From an uncultured Phycisphaerales bacterium (GTDB lineage: Bacteria > Planctomycetota > Phycisphaerae > WQYP01), in the NCBI GenBank assembly GCA_903868035.1, contig CAIPTQ010000293.1, forward strand, positions 1-7,130: 7,130 nucleotides of DNA, given 5' to 3'. A program made the translations under genes and the position numbers. The stretch's first letter is position 1, and every line of letters begins with the position of its first letter. Positions 1-6,948 of the stretch are shown in pieces. The notes below the pieces were generated by a model. That model was not told the origin of the DNA, did not search any database, and saw only the letters and a program-made list of their open reading frames with translations.

Positions 1-101
1 CGGGCTGGGTCAATGGCGACTTCGACTGCAACGGCGTGATTGACGGGACGGATTACTCCATGATCAACCTGGTGTTGGCGCAGCAAACCGTCACGTTGTG
101 A
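1..101 (+). CDS. Dockerin-like C-terminus of a secreted protein (partial, 5' end outside window)
   Basis: Only the last 32 complete codons are present, read from base 3 to a TGA at 99-101. They encode GWVNGDFDCNGVIDGTDY followed by a short helix ending LAQQTVTL. The segment has an EF-hand-like calcium loop (D, D, N, D, D at loop positions 1, 3, 5, 9, 12), as in a type I dockerin repeat. Similar GDFNxDGxxDGxDY tails are common at the C-termini of large secreted planctomycete proteins, which is the main taxonomic hint here. The body of the protein, and therefore its function, lies outside the window. Codons end in a G/C mix, unlike the C-ending codons of the downstream operon, so it probably belongs to a separate unit. 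Confidence 0.75.
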   Translation, partial: GWVNGDFDCNGVIDGTDYSMINLVLAQQTVTL

Positions 102-279
102 GGCGGGCGGATGACGGGAGAGGGGATTTTCGACTTTCAATTTGTGATTGGGGGGTTGCGGAACGCCTATCATGAACGCGGGCGGGGATTTTTTCTGGCA
201 TGGGGGTGCAAAGGGGTTATACATCCACGGTCTGGTTGGGCATTTCGCTGGCAGCCTCCAGTCCTGCCGCGCCGCCGAG
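102..279. other. G-rich intergenic region with a weak promoter candidate
   Basis: No convincing gene was seen between the dockerin stop and the first operon gene. By hand count bases 102-240 hold 57 G and 22 C, the opposite of the strongly C-rich plus strand further right. The most AT-rich patch is about 126-150. A possible sigma-70-like pair is TTGTGA (142-147) and TATCAT (168-173). The latter is one mismatch from TATAAT, but the 20-nt spacer is too long, so this is weak. From about base 247 the frame of the next gene begins to show its C-ending codons (GGC AGC CTC CAG TCC), so coding sequence could begin before the start chosen for that gene. Confidence 0.35.
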
Positions 280-738
280 ATGATGGGTGCCAAGCTCGAG
301 ATGAAGCGCTGGGTTTTCGAGCAACTGCTCACCAAGCTCGAACTGGCCAAGACCGACCAGGAATTCACCCAGTCGATGTCCGCGATCAACACCGTCGTCA
401 AGATCGACCCCGAAGCCGTCGCCGACGTCATGGGCGAAATCGAGGACAAGCTCGGCGACCAGGTCGATACCGACAAGGTCTGGGAAAAGATGTACGGCAA
501 GGAGATGGAGGGCGTGGAATCCCAGATGACCGACGTCGTCCCCTCCATGTCCGACATGATGGGCCAGTTGCAGGATGAGGTCGCCGAGGACATCACCGCC
601 GACCGCCCCGCCAAGTCCAAGGCCAAGGACCCCGAGGCCCCTGAGCGCCGCGCCAAAAAGGACACCGAAGGCAGCCTGGACTCCCAGATCAGCGACGCCC
701 GCAAGCGCATTCGCGAGGGTCTGGAGGGCGAAAAATGA
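280..738 (+). CDS. Putative ESCRT-III (Snf7/CHMP)-like small helical protein
   Basis: This encodes a 152-residue, acidic, Met-rich, helical protein with no signal peptide or TM segment. Residues 32-55 (QSMSAINTVV, then VMGEIEDKL) resemble the SM...MNLEK..ALMDKFE helix of CHMP1. Residues 63-71 fit the LDV...M stretch that follows, and residues 92-105 (DMMGQLQDEVAEDI) fit the DMLLQEMADEAGLDL stretch before the tail. A charged linker (106-130) leads to an amphipathic C-terminal helix with a MIM1-like motif. The stop overlaps the start of a Vps4-like MIT-AAA gene, the partner expected of an ESCRT-III protein. The protein lacks room for the alpha1-alpha2 hairpin that forms the usual ESCRT-III N-terminus (family members are about 200-240 aa). 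The start is uncertain: the frame is open back to a TTG at 148 and an ATG at 172, with ATGs at 280, 283 and 301, none with a good Shine-Dalgarno. ATG 280 was chosen because codon use looks coding from about 247. The alternative is an unrelated coiled-coil adaptor. The gene is near certain; the family is moderate. Confidence 0.6.
   Translation: MMGAKLEMKRWVFEQLLTKLELAKTDQEFTQSMSAINTVVKIDPEAVADVMGEIEDKLGDQVDTDKVWEKMYGKEMEGVESQMTDVVPSMSDMMGQLQDEVAEDITADRPAKSKAKDPEAPERRAKKDTEGSLDSQISDARKRIREGLEGEK
679..714 (+). other. MIM1-like C-terminal motif (MIT-interacting helix) in the ESCRT-III-like protein
   Basis: Residues 134-145 (from ATG 280) read DSQISDARKRIR. The MIM1 consensus that binds the Vps4 MIT domain is (D/E)xxLxxRLxxL(K/R). 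D134, I137, I144 and R145 fall on the expected positions, with the central RL replaced by A140-R141. The motif sits seven residues from the C-terminus after a charged disordered linker, exactly where ESCRT-III proteins carry it. Binding is inferred, not shown. Confidence 0.45.
723..728 (+). promoter_or_regulatory. Shine-Dalgarno for the MIT-AAA ATPase gene
   Basis: GGAGGG lies inside the last codons of the preceding gene, six bases before the ATG at 735. It fixes that start, which overlaps the upstream TGA as ATGA (735-738), so the two proteins are probably translationally coupled. Confidence 0.75.
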
Positions 739-1874
739 GTTTCCATGGCGATAAGAAACGCGAGCATGAGAATGCCGCCGTCGCCGCTTATGACGACGGC
801 GATCTGGCCAAGGCCGCCTTCCACTACTTCAAGGCCGCCGAGTTCGGCCTCAGCCTCGCCGAGGAAAGCGAAGGCAAGATCAAGCGCCGCTACGTCGAGG
901 ACGCCGGCGAGCTGATCGACCTGGCCGAAAAACTCAAAACCAAGGCCGCCGCCAAAAGCAAAACCCAGGTCCGCCGCGCCATGAAGGAGGGCGGCAAAGA
1001 GGAGGACGACAAGGCCAAGAGCGACTGGGAGCTTAAGGAACGCCCCACCGAGCGCCTCGACGATGTGGCCGGCCTGGCCGAGGTCAAGGCCGAGCTGCGC
1101 GAAAAGGTCATCGAGCCGTTCAACCACCCGGAACTCTTCGAGCGCTTCAAGCTCAAGGTCGGTGGGGGGGTCATCATGTACGGCCCGCCGGGCAACGGCA
1201 AAACCTTCGTCGCCAAGGCCGTCGCCGGCGAGCTTGACGCCGCCTTCTTCCCCGTCAATGCCGCCGAAATCAAGGACAAGTACGTCGGCGAAACCGAGAA
1301 GAACCTCCAGAAGCTCTTCGAGGACGCCCGCAAGCACGAGCGCTCCGTGCTCTTCCTCGATGAGGTCGATCACCTCCTGGCCAAACGCGGCAACCGCAAG
1401 ATCGGCACCGTCGCCCAGTTCCTCACCCTCACCGACGGCCTGGTCCAGAACAAAAACTGCATGCTCATCCTCGCGGCCACCAACAAGCCCTGGATGCTCG
1501 ACGAAGCCGTCATCCGGCCCGGCCGCCTGGGCACCCACATCTACGTCGGCCCGCCCGACGCCCCGGCCCGCGCGGCGATCCTCGCGCTCAACCTCAAGGA
1601 CGTGCCCATCGCCCCGGAACTCAACCTCGCCGAGCAGGCCGCCCTGACCGAAAGCTACAGCGGCGCCGACATGGCCGAAATTTGCGACCGCGCCAAACGC
1701 GCCGCCAAGAACCGCCAGGTCGCCAGCGGCAAGAACGAGTTCGTCACCAAGGAAGACTTCGCCGCCGCCCTCGCCAAGGTCAAGCCCTCCGTGACCGCCG
1801 AACAGCTCAAGGAATACGACGCATGGCGCATCTCCCGCGAAAAGCCCAAGGACGCCGGTGACGAGGAAGAATGA
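735..1874 (+). CDS. Vps4-like AAA ATPase with N-terminal MIT domain
   Basis: A 379-residue cytosolic protein. Residues 8-70 form an MIT three-helix domain: AAVAAYDDGDLAKAAFHYFKAAEF corresponds to the Vps4 segment around EEALRLYQHAVEYF, and the third helix ends LIDLAEKLK, close to the YLDRAEKLK of Vps4. A charged linker (71-100) follows. The AAA core has Walker A GPPGNGKT (150-157), aromatic pore loop KYVGETEK (182-189; Vps4 has KWLGESEK), Walker B VLFLDEVD (205-212), sensor-1 N250, arginine-finger candidates R261 and R264 in RPGR, and YSGAD (308-312). The C-terminus VKPSVTAEQLKEYDAW (349-364) matches the terminal helix of the Vps4/katanin/spastin clade. No room remains for the Vps4 beta-domain insertion, making the core more spastin/katanin-like. 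All catalytic residues seem intact. The predicted role is ATP-driven threading and disassembly of the adjacent ESCRT-III-like polymer, with ADP-bound subunits assembling into hexamers on ATP. It overlaps both neighbours by 4 bp. Confidence 0.9.
   Translation: MSFHGDKKREHENAAVAAYDDGDLAKAAFHYFKAAEFGLSLAEESEGKIKRRYVEDAGELIDLAEKLKTKAAAKSKTQVRRAMKEGGKEEDDKAKSDWELKERPTERLDDVAGLAEVKAELREKVIEPFNHPELFERFKLKVGGGVIMYGPPGNGKTFVAKAVAGELDAAFFPVNAAEIKDKYVGETEKNLQKLFEDARKHERSVLFLDEVDHLLAKRGNRKIGTVAQFLTLTDGLVQNKNCMLILAATNKPWMLDEAVIRPGRLGTHIYVGPPDAPARAAILALNLKDVPIAPELNLAEQAALTESYSGADMAEICDRAKRAAKNRQVASGKNEFVTKEDFAAALAKVKPSVTAEQLKEYDAWRISREKPKDAGDEEE
1863..1869 (+). promoter_or_regulatory. Shine-Dalgarno for the caspase-like gene; two possible starts
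   Basis: GAGGAAG lies one base before ATG 1871 (too close for good pairing) and seven bases before ATG 1877. Spacing therefore favours initiation at 1877 (MEPRRAAIIV), which would shorten the protein by two residues. The ATG at 1871 gives the usual ATGA overlap. Either choice keeps the genes coupled. Confidence 0.5.
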
Positions 1875-4351
1875 CCATGGAACCCCGCCGCGCCGCCATC
1901 ATCGTGGGCGTCAACCGCTACGACCAGGATTCCGGCATCCGTCCGCTGGAATACGCGGTCGATGACTGCACGCAGTTGCACGGCTTCCTGCAGTACCGGG
2001 CGGGTTACGATACCACGCGCCTGCTGCTGGAGCCTAACAAGGCCCAGGTGCTCGAAGCCTTCGAACAGGTTACCGCCACCCTCGGCCCCGGCGACCTCCT
2101 CGTCTTCTTCTTCGCCGGCCACGGCGTCGAGTTCAACGGCAAGCATCTGCTCCTCTGCCGCCCCGCACGCCTCTCGCGCCTCCGCCATTTTGACGAGGTG
2201 ATCCCCGTCGAGCAGGTGCGCGACGAAACCGCCAAGCCCGGCCTCCACCGCCTGATTATCCTGGACTCCTGCCGCAGCGATCTGCTGCACACGCGCGGCG
2301 CCCCGGGCGGCGAGGGCCTCAAGGGCGAAAAACACCTGCGTGATATCGTGGCGCGGATGTCCCAGGAACGCGAGGTGGATGCCGGTTCCGTCGCGGTCCT
2401 CTGCTCCTGCCCGGAAAACGCCCAGGCCCTCGAACTGCCAGCCGTGCGCCAGGGCTTGTTCACCGCGGCCTTCCTCGAGGAGATGCAGGAGGCCGTCCAG
2501 TGCGGCGGCGAACTCAAGCTCTCCGACACCTTCATCGAGTCCCTCAGTCAGCGCATGGCCCGCCTGGCCCGCGAACACGGCCAGAACGACTGGAAGCAGC
2601 GCCCCTGGGTGCAATGGTCCGGCGTCATGCCCGCGATGATCGCCGGCACCGCCGTGCCGGAGCGGCCCACGCCCGCGCCGTCCAAACTAGAGTCGAAGCC
2701 CGAGCCGCCCAAGCCGGAGCCGCCCCAACCTGATTCGCAGGCCCTTGCCGTTGTCCAAAAGCTCCCCGGCGCATCGTCATCCGCGAAACCAGTTCCGCCA
2801 GCGTCACCGCGCACCAAACCCAAAGCTCGCGCCTCGGCCGTTCCCCCGCCGCTGCCCGACACGGGCACGAACGTACTACACGCGGTGATTGATATTGATG
2901 TCCGGGAGATTGAGCGGGCGACCAAATCCGCCAAAGGCGCCTCGGACTACCTCAAGACGGTCTGGAAAAGCCGCCAGGCGGACTGGGCGCGCGCCGCCGG
3001 ACTGGGCTGGCCCGCGGGGCAATGGCTGATGGGTGCGTGCCTCGAGGAAGGCCTCGGCACAACCGCCAACCCGGCCCAAGCCGTCAAACTCTACCGCCAG
3101 GCCGCCGATCAAGGCTTCGCACCCGCCCAATACAACCTGGGATTCTGCTACGGCAACAGCCGGGGCGTCCCCCAGGACGCAACCCAGGCCATCAAGTGGT
3201 ATCGCAAAGCCGCCGATCAGGGTTACGCCCCCGCCCAATTCAAACTCGCCATCTACTACGAAAACGGCGCGGGCGTTCCGCAGGACAAAACCCAGGCCGC
3301 CCGTTTGTATCGCCAGGCCGCCGACCAGGGCCACGCCATCGCCCAATTCAACCTCGCCTTGTGCTACGACCAGGGCACCGGCGTCCCGCAGGACAAACCC
3401 GAGGCCGCCCGGCTGTACCGCCAGGCCGCCGACCAGGGCCACGCCTCCGCGCAATACAACCTGGCCCTGTGCTATGACAACGGCTGGGGCGTGGCTCCGG
3501 ATAAAACCCAGGCCTTCCAGTGGTATCTCAAGGCCGCCTCGCAGGGCCAAACCGCCGCCCAGTTCAACCTCGGCGTCTCCTACGACAAGGGCGATGGCGT
3601 CGCGCAGGACAAGGCCCAGGCCGTCCACTGGTATCGCAAGGCCGCCGATCAAGGCTACCCCGCCGCCCAGTACAACCTGGCCCTGTGCTACGCCAACGGC
3701 ACCGGCGTCGCTGCCAACAAAGCCGAGGCGGTCAAGTGGTATCGCCAGGCCGCCGAAAAAGGCCACCCCGCCGCCCAGTTCAACTATGCCGTGCGCCTCG
3801 ACAACGGCGACGGCATCGCGCAGAACAAAACCGAGGCCGTCCAGTGGTATCGCAAGGCCGCCGAGCAGGGCCACGCCTCCGCCCAATACAACCTGGGGGT
3901 CTGCTACGAAAACGGCGAGGGCGTGGCACCCGACAAAAATGAGGCGGCCAAGTGGTATCGCAAGGCCGCCGAACAGGGGAATGCCGCCGCCCAGAAGGCC
4001 CTCAAGCGCAAGTGCTACCTCTCCACCGCCGCGGCCGACGTCATGGGCTGGGCCGACGACGGCCCGGAACTCAATCTCCTGCGCCGCATGCGCGACACCT
4101 ACATGATGCGGACGCCCGCGCGGCGCGCCCAAGTCGCCGCCTATTACCAAACCGCCCCCCGCATCGTCCATGCCATCGACGCCGCCCCCCGCCCCGCCGC
4201 CGAATGGCGCAGCATCGCCCACGCCCACCTCCTCCCCGTCCTCGCGCTCCTCCGCTCCGGCAACCTCCCCGCCGCCCATCACCACTACCAATCCATGGTT
4301 CACGAACTCACCGCCCGCTGGCTTCACCGACCACTGACCACTAACCACTAA
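1871..4351 (+). CDS. Caspase-like peptidase (C14) with Sel1 repeats and CFI-box-like C-terminal domain
   Basis: An 826-residue protein with no signal peptide. Residues 7-260 are a caspase/metacaspase fold: AAIIVGVNRY (first strand), LEYAVDDC (26-33), catalytic His84 in FFFAGHGVE and catalytic Cys134 in LIILDSCRSD, 50 residues apart as usual for C14. A Pro-rich, Lys/Arg-containing linker (262-330) could be flexible or processed. Nine Sel1-like repeats of 36 residues (about 383-706) follow, probably a protein-binding solenoid for target or partner recognition. Residues 712-815 begin KCYLSTAAADVMG and continue with LLRRMRDTYM, resembling the CFI-box-type C-terminal domain found behind TPR/Sel1 arrays; its function is unknown to me. 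The predicted role is a cytosolic protease effector or processor activated by the ESCRT/AAA pair, inferred only from the 4-bp overlap with the AAA gene. The natural end has been altered: the last residues (PLTTNH) and the stop are written by a heptamer array. Confidence 0.9.
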   Translation: MTMEPRRAAIIVGVNRYDQDSGIRPLEYAVDDCTQLHGFLQYRAGYDTTRLLLEPNKAQVLEAFEQVTATLGPGDLLVFFFAGHGVEFNGKHLLLCRPARLSRLRHFDEVIPVEQVRDETAKPGLHRLIILDSCRSDLLHTRGAPGGEGLKGEKHLRDIVARMSQEREVDAGSVAVLCSCPENAQALELPAVRQGLFTAAFLEEMQEAVQCGGELKLSDTFIESLSQRMARLAREHGQNDWKQRPWVQWSGVMPAMIAGTAVPERPTPAPSKLESKPEPPKPEPPQPDSQALAVVQKLPGASSSAKPVPPASPRTKPKARASAVPPPLPDTGTNVLHAVIDIDVREIERATKSAKGASDYLKTVWKSRQADWARAAGLGWPAGQWLMGACLEEGLGTTANPAQAVKLYRQAADQGFAPAQYNLGFCYGNSRGVPQDATQAIKWYRKAADQGYAPAQFKLAIYYENGAGVPQDKTQAARLYRQAADQGHAIAQFNLALCYDQGTGVPQDKPEAARLYRQAADQGHASAQYNLALCYDNGWGVAPDKTQAFQWYLKAASQGQTAAQFNLGVSYDKGDGVAQDKAQAVHWYRKAADQGYPAAQYNLALCYANGTGVAANKAEAVKWYRQAAEKGHPAAQFNYAVRLDNGDGIAQNKTEAVQWYRKAAEQGHASAQYNLGVCYENGEGVAPDKNEAAKWYRKAAEQGNAAAQKALKRKCYLSTAAADVMGWADDGPELNLLRRMRDTYMMRTPARRAQVAAYYQTAPRIVHAIDAAPRPAAEWRSIAHAHLLPVLALLRSGNLPAAHHHYQSMVHELTARWLHRPLTTNH
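3017..3988 (+). repeat. Nine-unit tandem 108-bp repeat encoding Sel1-like repeats
   Basis: Nine consecutive 36-codon units with no length change between them. Each follows the pattern AQxNLxxCYxxGxGVxxDxxxAxxWYRxAAxQGxxx. At the DNA level neighbouring units share long near-identical stretches such as GCCGCCGACCAGGGCCACGC, especially units 3 and 4, which suggests recent unit duplication. The first unit is the most diverged. Confidence 0.9.
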
Positions 4352-4358
4352 CCACTGT
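4324..4358 (+). repeat. CCACTRA heptamer array spanning the caspase-gene stop codon
   Basis: Units: TCACCGA (degenerate), CCACTGA, CCACTAA, CCACTAA, CCACTGT. The stop TAA (4349-4351) lies within the third clear unit and the array encodes the final residues of the caspase-like protein. It closely matches the array at 6907-6948. Short heptamer arrays of this kind are dispersed in several bacterial lineages including cyanobacteria; their function is unknown. Confidence 0.85.
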
Positions 4359-4373: not shown

Positions 4374-5240
4374 ATGGGACTTCCCTTCCTCGCCGCCAAA
4401 TGGGGCCTCGCCTGGTTCACCCGCATCGGGGCCATGTCGCTCGTCCTCCTCCTCGGCTGGCAATGCTGGGACCACTTCCGCCCCCACCGGGCCGAACTTG
4501 GCCCCATCCGCCAGGCCTTCGCCGACCGCATCATCCCCGTCATCGTCAATGAACTCCGCCAGTCCAAGGGCACTGTCCAGCAGGTCGCCGTCCTCCATTT
4601 CGCCAACGACCCCACCGACTATTTCACCAACCAGTTCCGCGCCACCGTCGAACACGGCGGCTCCTTCGACCTCCGCGACCGAACCCTCGGCGAAAAAATC
4701 TCCGACACGCTCGGCCAGCGCTCCACCGCCTACGGCACCAAAGAAACCGCCCTCGCCCGCGCCAAATCCCTCGCCGCCCCCGCCGTCATCTTCGGCACCA
4801 TCCACACCTTCGAGTCCGACGGCACCTCCGCCACCCTCGACGCCGAAGTCACCCTCGCCAACGTCTCCACCGGCGAAATCCTCTTCACCAAACGCTACAA
4901 CAAGGACACCACCCCCTTCACCGCCCTCGCCGCCGGCGTCGCCTCGATCACCCTGGGCATCCCCTGGTATCAGCGCCTCGTGGCCTGGATTCTCATCGTC
5001 GTCCTCCTGCCCGTCTTCACCATCGCCTTCATCCGCACCATGGTCCGCAAAAAATCCAACCGCTCCAACGCCTTTGTCCTGGCCGTCTACACCGTGGCCG
5101 CCGTCCTGCTGGCCTACCTCGCGGGCGTCTGCGGATTTTCCTCCTGGTGGAGTTCCGCCTTCTTCCTCCTCCTGGCCGCCGGCGCCTTCGCCTACAACGT
5201 GGCCTTCATGAGTTTCGCATTGCGTCTGGAGGATGCCTGA
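4374..5240 (+). CDS. Four-TM membrane protein with CsgG/LpoB-like extracytoplasmic domain
   Basis: A 288-residue protein. Predicted TM segments by hydrophobicity: about 12-31, 201-221, 232-251 and 259-279. Positive charges cluster in the 222-231 loop (RTMVRKKSNR) and near the N-terminus, so both ends should be cytosolic and residues 32-200 extracytoplasmic. That domain has the layout of the CsgG/FlgO/LpoB-like fold: a strand QVAVLHFAND (70-79), a helix and GSFDLRDR (96-103), an Ala-rich helix, then VIFGTIHTF (138-146) and LDAEVTLANVSTGEIL (155-170). The full architecture is not one I recognise. It lies in the same direction as the caspase gene upstream and three bases before the SPFH-like gene, so it may anchor that protein or sense envelope state for the module. 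Function is inferred from context only. The codons are almost all C-ending. Confidence 0.75.
   Translation: MGLPFLAAKWGLAWFTRIGAMSLVLLLGWQCWDHFRPHRAELGPIRQAFADRIIPVIVNELRQSKGTVQQVAVLHFANDPTDYFTNQFRATVEHGGSFDLRDRTLGEKISDTLGQRSTAYGTKETALARAKSLAAPAVIFGTIHTFESDGTSATLDAEVTLANVSTGEILFTKRYNKDTTPFTALAAGVASITLGIPWYQRLVAWILIVVLLPVFTIAFIRTMVRKKSNRSNAFVLAVYTVAAVLLAYLAGVCGFSSWWSSAFFLLLAAGAFAYNVAFMSFALRLEDA
5228..5232 (+). promoter_or_regulatory. Shine-Dalgarno for the SPFH/DUF4384 gene
   Basis: GGAGG lies inside the end of the preceding gene, eleven bases before ATG 5244. The spacing is a little long but the match is strong. With only 3 bp between the genes, coupling is likely. Confidence 0.6.
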
Positions 5241-5243
5241 GCC

Positions 5244-6902
5244 ATGACCACCCTTGAACCCATCGTCGCCGTCGAAGCCCCGCCCCGGGAAAAAAGTTTC
5301 CTCGGCATCTCCCTCCGCGCCCCGCGCGTCCCCCAGCTCCGCCCCGACGCCCACCTCTATGCCTCCGCCCCGCGCCCCGACGGCATCCGCGAATTCACCC
5401 GCATCACCGTCGCCGCCGAACTCCCCGCCCTCGCCGGCGCCGTTCTCTTCTACCACGTCAGCCTCGCCGCCGCCCCCTTCGCCCCCACCTTCTCCGCCGC
5501 CGTCAATGACTCCCAAAACCGCCCCTGGGACTGCCGCCTCGCCGGCCGCGTCTCCGTCACCGACTCCCGCCGTTTCCTCGAATCCTTCGCCGCCACCATC
5601 GCCGCGCCCAATTCCCCGCTCACCGCCGCCCTCGCCGAATCCTGGTTCGCCCACCGCATCGCCCCCAACGTCCGCGACGCCATCCGCGCCTACGCCCTCG
5701 AAGACCTTCGCGACAAACACGCCCTCCCCCCCGCCTGGTGGGAAAAGCAACTCGCCGCCTGGCTCGCCGACTTCGGCATCACCGTCCGCATCGAGGAAGT
5801 CGCCTGGTCCAGCGCCCAGGCCGCCGCCGCCGAGGCCGACGCCGCCCGCCAGCGCGACCTCGCCCACGTCGCCCAGGCCCGCCAGGAGGAGCACGAAGCC
5901 CAGCTCCGCGAAGCCGCCGCCCGCGCCGCGTACGAACTGCGCAAAAAACAAATCGAAAACGACCAAACCCTCTCCGCCCACGAGACCGCCAACCAGCTCC
6001 AGCTCCTCGAAAAAAAGCACCGCAAGGAGCTTATCGAAGCCGACACCCAGATCGAAAACGCCCGCCGCGACGCCGAAAAAGCCGCCCTCGCCCACGAGCG
6101 CGAACTCGCCCGCCTCCGCCAGGACATCACCGCCGTCCAGCAGTCCCAGGAGCGCGCCCGCCAGGCCGAGACCCAGCACACCGCCATCCTCGAGGAACTC
6201 CGCGGCTTCACCGCCACCCTCGCCAAACTCTCCGACCTCCCCGACCACCTGCTGGCCAAACTCGCCGACCGCGACGCCCACACCGCCCATGCCGCCGCCG
6301 AACGCATCGTCTCCCCCGAATTCAACCTCTCCGCCTCCACCCTCGCCGGCATGGGCTTCCACACCCAACAACAATCCCTCCTCGAACACCTCCGCGCCCA
6401 CGCCGCCGCCGACGGCCACCCGATTTCCATCCGCAAAACCGACCTCGTCACCCGCGACATCGGCACCGCCCGCGTCCACGCCCTCCCCATCAACACCACC
6501 CTCCAGTTCCAGTTCACCACCGCCCGCGCCGGCTTCGTCACCCTCCTCAACATCGGCACCAGCGGCAACGTCTACGTCCACGTCCCCAACGCCTACACCC
6601 CCCTCGCCCGCACCCAAGTCCCCGCCGGCGCCTACGCCGTCCCCGGCCCCGAACTCCTCCCCTGGGACCGCCTCCAGCAACTCGGCCTCGACTACCTCGA
6701 AGTCGGCCCCCCCGGCTGGGAGCACCTCGTCGTCCTCGTCTCCGACCGCCCCCTCCTCCCCGCCCACACCCTCGCCCACGCCTCCCCCGAAAACCCCTTC
6801 ATCAAACTCACCCTCCCCGACCTCTCCCAACTATGCGCCGCCATCAACGCCGCCCCGCCAGACACCTGGTCCGCCGGCGTCCTCTCATTCCTGGTTGGCT
6901 GA
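5244..6902 (+). CDS. SPFH/Band-7-like, coiled-coil, DUF4384 domain protein
   Basis: A 552-residue, apparently soluble protein; no TM or signal peptide was seen. Residues about 98-190 look like the second half of an SPFH/Band-7 domain: DSRRFLESFAA (107-117), a helix with RIAPNVRDAIRAYALEDLRD (138-157), then LAAWLADFGITVRIEEVAW (170-188), the usual L..yGI.v..v pattern before the coiled coil. Residues 190-312 form a long Ala/Glu/Arg-rich coiled coil, as in flotillins and prohibitins. Residues about 395-510 match a DUF4384-type beta-sandwich: LQFQFTTARAGFVTLLNIG (420-438), VYVHVPNAY (443-451), YLEVGPPGWEHLVVLVS (484-500). DUF4384 is often met in caspase- and TPR-containing bacterial signalling proteins. 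The predicted role is an oligomeric membrane-associated scaffold. SPFH proteins such as B. subtilis YdjI partner with PspA, a bacterial ESCRT-III relative, which fits this locus. DUF4384 and coiled coil are confident; SPFH is moderate. Confidence 0.75.
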   Translation: MTTLEPIVAVEAPPREKSFLGISLRAPRVPQLRPDAHLYASAPRPDGIREFTRITVAAELPALAGAVLFYHVSLAAAPFAPTFSAAVNDSQNRPWDCRLAGRVSVTDSRRFLESFAATIAAPNSPLTAALAESWFAHRIAPNVRDAIRAYALEDLRDKHALPPAWWEKQLAAWLADFGITVRIEEVAWSSAQAAAAEADAARQRDLAHVAQARQEEHEAQLREAAARAAYELRKKQIENDQTLSAHETANQLQLLEKKHRKELIEADTQIENARRDAEKAALAHERELARLRQDITAVQQSQERARQAETQHTAILEELRGFTATLAKLSDLPDHLLAKLADRDAHTAHAAAERIVSPEFNLSASTLAGMGFHTQQQSLLEHLRAHAAADGHPISIRKTDLVTRDIGTARVHALPINTTLQFQFTTARAGFVTLLNIGTSGNVYVHVPNAYTPLARTQVPAGAYAVPGPELLPWDRLQQLGLDYLEVGPPGWEHLVVLVSDRPLLPAHTLAHASPENPFIKLTLPDLSQLCAAINAAPPDTWSAGVLSFLVG

Positions 6903-6906
6903 CAAC

Positions 6907-6948
6907 TCACTGACCACTGACCACTGGCCACTGGCCACTGACCACTGC
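6907..6948 (+). repeat. CCACTGR heptamer array between convergent genes
   Basis: Six units: TCACTGA, CCACTGA, CCACTGG, CCACTGG, CCACTGA, CCACTGC. It fills almost the whole 47-bp gap between the SPFH/DUF4384 stop and the permease stop. It is the second copy of the array seen at 4324-4358 and the two together bracket the last two operon genes. No stem-loop terminator was seen. Confidence 0.9.

Follow-up and report, generated by a model that had tools for sequence, protein, structure and literature searches.

The 7,130-base contig CAIPTQ010000293.1 of an uncultured Phycisphaerales bacterium (in its whole length, hereafter the window) carries part of a bacterial-type Snf7 gene and, overlapping its end, the gene of an AAA ATPase whose N-terminal domain is predicted to be MIT-like; the two products probably form an ATP-driven membrane-remodelling pair. 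The family of the first gene is homologous to Snf7, the ATPase has AAA and Vps4_C domains, the two genes keep their adjacency in relatives, and the pair is linked with a membrane-protein gene and enriched in nearby caspases. A conserved bacterial pair of Snf7 and MIT-like-AAA genes makes the ESCRT polymer's acquisition of an ATPase a testable question, and its caspase neighbours pose the question of a bacterial link between membrane remodelling and caspase signalling.

A helical protein family of Snf7 type

The original prediction, made from the letters of the window, had described the first gene's product as a small methionine-rich helical protein related to ESCRT-III. The physical description was right: open reading frame 280-738 on the plus strand encodes 152 amino acids, helical and rich in methionine. 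The kinship stands at the level of the family and fails for the window protein alone, which a Pfam scan left unmatched to Snf7 (PF03357) at E<=1. The family comprises 251 members including the window's own, mostly 215-228 amino acids long among the matches listed (120 of the 251 proteins), and 27 of 29 aligned members match PF03357 at E<=0.1, the best at 1.7e-6. Many single-member matches lie under the Pfam cut-off, as is the case for Sulfolobus in the control set; members from loci L003, L031 and L037 lie over it. Across 13 family-carrying genomes the Snf7 model was found in 11 at E<=0.01 and over its cut-off in 4 (controls, 1 of 14), the matches in genome G387, and partly in G582, being sited apart from the family genes.

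Profiles extend this relationship. The aligned 29-member set reaches yeast SNF7 at 2.5e-5, and a broader 35-member profile reaches it at 9.8e-10 together with Asgard ESCRT-IIIB at 0.0019; the same profile also hits an unrelated TPR construct, 4y6c, at 2.4e-5 over 31 residues. No PspA or Vipp1 chain appeared in this search up to E 10. PF04012 is absent both from the 25 listed of 28 families matched by members and from the members scanned at L003, L031 and L037, while a PspA match at E<=1e-5 is missing from 12 of the 13 family-carrying genomes, the lone match lying away from the family locus.

The predicted structure of a relative, P0002 (pLDDT 71), consists of a long hairpin (helices 10-58 and 62-116) followed by shorter C-terminal helices. 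Its top five Foldseek matches are ESCRT-III proteins at probability 1.00, but at E 0.04-0.15; Vipp1 and PspA chains come further down the list, and in a VIA fold comparison BAR domains rank as high as ESCRT-III. This modelled fold is supportive of an ESCRT-III hairpin, short of decisive. A candidate MIT-interacting motif, R[LI]xx[LM], is present in the C-terminal 22 residues of 101 of 120 relatives and of 12 of 35 diverse relatives.

At the family level these results support an ESCRT-III of Snf7 type rather than of PspA/Vipp1 type. A PspA- or Vipp1-type protein whose AAA neighbour has nothing to do with its work is very improbable: the Vipp1 and PspA chains low in the Foldseek list favour it, whereas the profile search, the near-absence of the PspA model from the genomes and the constant adjacency of the ATPase gene do not. 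PspA/Vipp1 identity is accordingly disfavoured, members and profile alike matching Snf7 and leaving PspA/Vipp1 unmatched.

The adjoining AAA ATPase

The stop of the Snf7-family gene and the start of the second gene share four bases, ATGA at 735-738 on the plus strand, an overlap that the original prediction had reported correctly, along with an AAA product ending in a Vps4-type helix. This product (735-1874, plus strand, 379 amino acids) matches PF00004 at 6.1e-35 and Vps4_C (PF09336) at 9.3e-6 and 26.0 bits, the cut-off being 21.3; inside the latter match, Pfam and an AlphaFold model place a predicted C-terminal helix (residues 355-369; 1797-1841). The motifs GPPGNGKT (residues 150-157; 1182-1205), KYVG (residues 182-185; 1278-1289; also in spastin) and VLFLDE (residues 205-210; 1347-1364), all on the plus strand, we take to be Walker A, pore loop 1 and Walker B. 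AlphaFold predicts three helices for the N-domain (residues 3-82; 741-980, plus strand). The CdvC model NF041006 spans residues 8-365 at 209 bits, far under its cut-off of 650, and the CDC48 (212) and PAN (202) models score the protein about as the CdvC model does; NF041006 reached its cut-off in none of the 13 family-carrying genomes.

Distribution of the pair

The ESCRT-III and ATPase genes are adjacent in 18 of 20 loci compared, the window included, with genes called by a codon-usage script. The ESCRT-III gene comes first in 17 of the 18 and the ATPase gene in L030, and six loci (the window, L001, L002, L003, L004 and L039) share the four-base overlap. The exceptions are L005, with three intervening genes, and L028, which stops at a contig edge. 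Two to four ESCRT-III paralogues occur in L031, L032 and L037. Among the matches listed, the ATPase is also present on 34 of the 57 ESCRT-III contigs that measure 4 kb or more, contigs being paired by equal size from 76 of the 77 contig sizes of one list.

Relatives are named from Phycisphaeraceae, Planctomycetota, Verrucomicrobia, Hydrogenedentota, Lentisphaerae and Victivallis metagenome-assembled genomes (MAGs), and also from Thermodesulfobacteriota. At E<=1e-4 the family is present in 2 of 343, 2 of 68, 14 of 197 and 1 of 236 genomes of the four groups drawn, a patchy distribution that is densest in the class of G006. A contig scan of genomes with the window ATPase returned no relatives, as did searches of viral contigs (with two short patterns), plasmids and phages.

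It is extremely improbable that archaeal or eukaryotic DNA was binned into these bacterial MAGs or that the contig is chimeric. The named hosts are indeed MAGs, and the first ~257 bases of the window do not fit the family. Against such an artefact stand the 251 members, the bacterial groups just named, and bacterial markers on pair-bearing contigs over NCBIfam cut-offs (ftsH and folP at L005; ruvC, gatA and gatC at L038, where a ligA-like gene falls below its cut-off).

Two further arrangements were seen. A Hydrogenedentota-group genome holds a second, divergent pair (L080, G387:C3:18001-37000, at 8812-13063), in which a 210-amino-acid gene with a Snf7 match (0.0013) precedes an AAA gene and a caspase-Sel1 gene; the gene after the caspase (13105-16521) has an FGE-sulfatase domain (1.5e-28). 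At L006, the pair is followed by a second divergent AAA-like protein (10829-12067) without the P-loop pattern searched.

A Vps4-like role weighed

Several caveats attach to reading the window as a complete ESCRT-III gene with a Vps4-like partner. First, a point missed by the original prediction, the window copy is without ~70 N-terminal residues of the family, corresponding to the first helix and the beginning of the second in the P0002 model. A reading frame does begin at 280, where the original prediction put the gene, and it lies inside a longer open frame (172-738, plus strand, from an ATG at 172; a TTG lies at 148). That frame joins the family only at about base 258, so the ~70 residues are absent and unrelated sequence takes their place: the residues before SLQSCRAAEMM align with no relative. 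The loss may reflect truncation, insertion or misassembly.

Second, MIT homology of the N-domain is marginal by sequence. A comparison of its profile with MIT in hhalign gave P 1.5e-5 at a marginal probability of 57, VPS4B MIT was matched weakly (E 0.52), and PF04212 (MIT) matched none of 20 N-domains. From the MIT-AAA architecture originally proposed, the AAA core is secure and the three-helix model and profile comparison agree with the rest, while the Pfam MIT model does not.

Third, in the best tree a clade (96/92) unites the Vps4, CdvC, katanin and spastin references and excludes the bacterial ATPases, among which the window's groups with the Planctomycetota locus L002 (99/93), making a bacterial host of that kind probable. 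Tests of joint clades rejected yeast Vps4 (p 0.008) and did not reject CdvC (p 0.195), Cdc48 (0.136) or FtsH (0.242); tree and tests comprised 12 reference rows only, with no PAN, ARC or archaeal Cdc48 among them. Judged by sequence, several deep placements are compatible with the bacterial ATPases. At the arginine-finger place, where those references have RR[FL], the window ATPase has instead a Cdc48-D2-like RPGR (residues 261-264; 1515-1526, plus strand).

FtsH was considered as the closest kin: the best tree does not show it as such, though the joint clade went unrejected. The ATPases of L032 (8872-11262), L036 (941-3166) and L037 (6462-9482) have two AAA domains each, the second of which cluster with L027 and L029.

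Nevertheless, that the ATPase works like Vps4 is reasonable, because an AAA protein with an MIT-like N-domain and a Vps4_C helix adjoins the Snf7 gene in 18 of 20 loci. Those same features are what survives of the predicted Vps4-type ATPase; the 96/92 clade and the rejected grouping with yeast Vps4 tell against the label, the unrejected grouping with CdvC does not, and membership in the Vps4 group goes beyond the evidence. The outcome that the original prediction had named as counting against it did not arise, as Snf7 was matched, the model contains an ESCRT-like hairpin and the ATPase falls outside FtsH in the best tree.

Genomic neighbourhood

The original prediction described a two-gene unit. 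The pair is real and recurrent, and the coupled genes go on past it: five plus-strand genes (280-738, 735-1874, 1871-4351, 4374-5240 and 5244-6902) lie on the contig, the first three chained by ATGA overlaps, and the caspase and membrane-protein genes had been missed. The third gene (1871-4351, plus strand) encodes a caspase-like protease that has nine Sel1 repeats, a C-terminal CFI box and a His84/Cys134 dyad assigned by motif. The fourth (4374-5240, plus strand) encodes a membrane protein with a weak LpoB-like domain (E 0.00099, below the cut-off) and about three C-terminal hydrophobic segments. The fifth (5244-6902, plus strand) encodes a coiled-coil protein with a C-terminal DUF4384 by Pfam; an SPFH-like N-terminal part, matched in 1 of 22 relatives, is weakly supported. 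A DUF4384 relative of 857 amino acids, P0289, has protein kinase domains as well.

Of the 20 positive genomes, 16 encode relatives of the membrane protein, and in 14 of the 16 (not G001 or G589) a copy shares a contig with an ESCRT-III gene, G387 counting through the contig of its second pair, the one with the Snf7 match. The 20 genomes have 67 caspase domains, spread over 11 of them. Eight of these domains, from 4 genomes, are found no farther than 10 kb from the pair, where 0.27 would be expected (P 6e-5 for as many as 4 genomes), a count that leaves out the L080 caspase found by Pfam; in the other 16 genomes none lies within that distance. Pfam finds caspases at the window, L001, L027, L029, L031 and L080. 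Papain-like protease genes lie 5' of the pair at L006, L027, L029, L032 and L037, as do sigma-70 region 4 matches at L032, L036 and L037 (8.4e-7 to 9.8e-5; L036 below the cut-off).

Such neighbours could mark a defence or regulated cell-death locus, in which the caspase would become active upon infection or damage and the part of the ESCRT-like pair would be to damage the membrane or to reseal it. We hold this unlikely, though worth weighing. The caspases, the sigma-70 region 4-like and papain genes 5' of the pair in Lentisphaeria and a study that reportedly describes caspase-bearing conflict systems (PMC7159879) are in its favour; yet searches of phage, plasmid and viral collections (the last with two short patterns) gave no relatives, and PADLOC links the ATPase with IetA and TRIP13 through generic AAA matches and the small protein with ZorA through weak ones.

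The proteases also bear on a reading that makes the ATPase an unfoldase of Cdc48 type, equipped with a helical N-domain of its own; in it, the helical protein serves as adaptor or scaffold of the ATPase, and unfolded proteins pass to the caspase or papain proteases with no membrane remodelling at all. Besides the protease genes close by, p97 comes first in both the fold and the sequence match lists of the ATPase, RPGR is as in p97 D2, and BAR and other long-helix folds equal the ESCRT-III scores. Even so, this reading is quite unlikely: the helical family matches Snf7 by sequence, its most constant further partner is a membrane protein, and 16 of the 20 genomes have no caspase near the pair.

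As a second ESCRT-III subunit we considered A5, a coiled-coil gene of ~200 amino acids beside the pair (15 genes from 14 loci, selected for position and length, with doubt attaching to the genes of L005, L006 and L036). It was rejected: the profile comparison gave a probability of 1.6, PDB matches were mostly coiled coils, and Pfam gave no consistent match. Elsewhere in the window, the translated 3' tail of an unrelated frame (3-101, plus strand) presumably resembles a dockerin-type tail. Short intergenic repeat runs containing CCACT (ACCACTGA/ACCACTAA) follow the caspase gene (4327-4356) and the DUF4384 gene (6908-6947). Rfam gave no matches in the window, and its promoter-like and terminator-like counts are about the means of shuffled sequence.

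Proposed mechanism

We propose that the helical protein would assemble into polymers along the inner side of the cell membrane and that the MIT-like domain of the ATPase would dock on its conserved C-terminal helix. The ATPase could then pull subunits out of the polymer in the manner of Vps4 and CdvC. Anchoring of this machine, or sensing of the envelope, may fall to the membrane protein and the DUF4384 coiled coil. The caspase-like protease, joined in some relatives by a papain-like protease and a sigma-factor-like gene, may couple the machine to a decision over stress or cell death. Remodelling of the polymer would help to repair or reshape the envelope, with control exerted by the protease and membrane-protein genes.

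A bolder reading, tentative and somewhat less likely than its negation, is that the pair represents a third, separate bacterial ESCRT lineage, in which an MIT-bearing AAA, derived from the Cdc48 side independently of Vps4 and CdvC, remodels Snf7-type filaments, and which is connected with caspase-like proteases and a membrane protein that senses the envelope. This would be a caspase-controlled ESCRT machine outside eukaryotes.

Relation to known systems

PspA and Vipp1 form part of the wider ESCRT-III superfamily, according to the portion of PMC8281802 consulted, and share the long helical hairpin; unlike them, the window family has no PspA-type match and has an AAA gene adjacent. Bacteria are described as having no clear Vps4 homologue in the part of PMC7615534 available to us. 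Bacterial loci with Vps4-like AAA genes are known from the sections of PMC11237479 seen, and the window resembles them in this; there, snf7 is displaced by a TPR plus 6TM gene, whereas the window locus keeps snf7 beside the MIT-like-AAA gene and adds a membrane protein and, in some relatives, caspases. Locus L062 (G003:C247), a TPR-AAA gene beside a TPR and hydrophobic protein, with the longest branch of our tree, resembles these snf7-less loci as far as that source describes them. Archaeal Meth_adaptin loci bring together ESCRT-III, Vps4 and a coiled-coil SPFH protein (PMC10936438, in the excerpt consulted), a combination like that of the window, where the SPFH part rests on 1 of 22 relatives; those loci are archaeal. 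The literature searched, outside subscription papers and preprints, describes no bacterial locus with snf7, MIT-AAA and caspase genes, and published work, in the parts seen, covers related pieces (PMC11237479) and not the window's arrangement of snf7 beside an MIT-like-AAA gene.

The closest parallels are archaeal CdvB-CdvC and Asgard and eukaryotic ESCRT-III-Vps4. Unlike these, the pair has bacterial hosts, its ATPase, which carries RPGR, is left out of their clade by the best tree, and the window locus adds a membrane protein, a DUF4384 coiled coil and a caspase; no winged-helix partner was noticed at the loci, but no search was aimed at one. What the systems share is a Snf7-type helical protein adjoining a single-AAA ATPase with an MIT or MIT-like N-domain and a Vps4_C helix, as well as several ESCRT-III paralogues in L031, L032 and L037.
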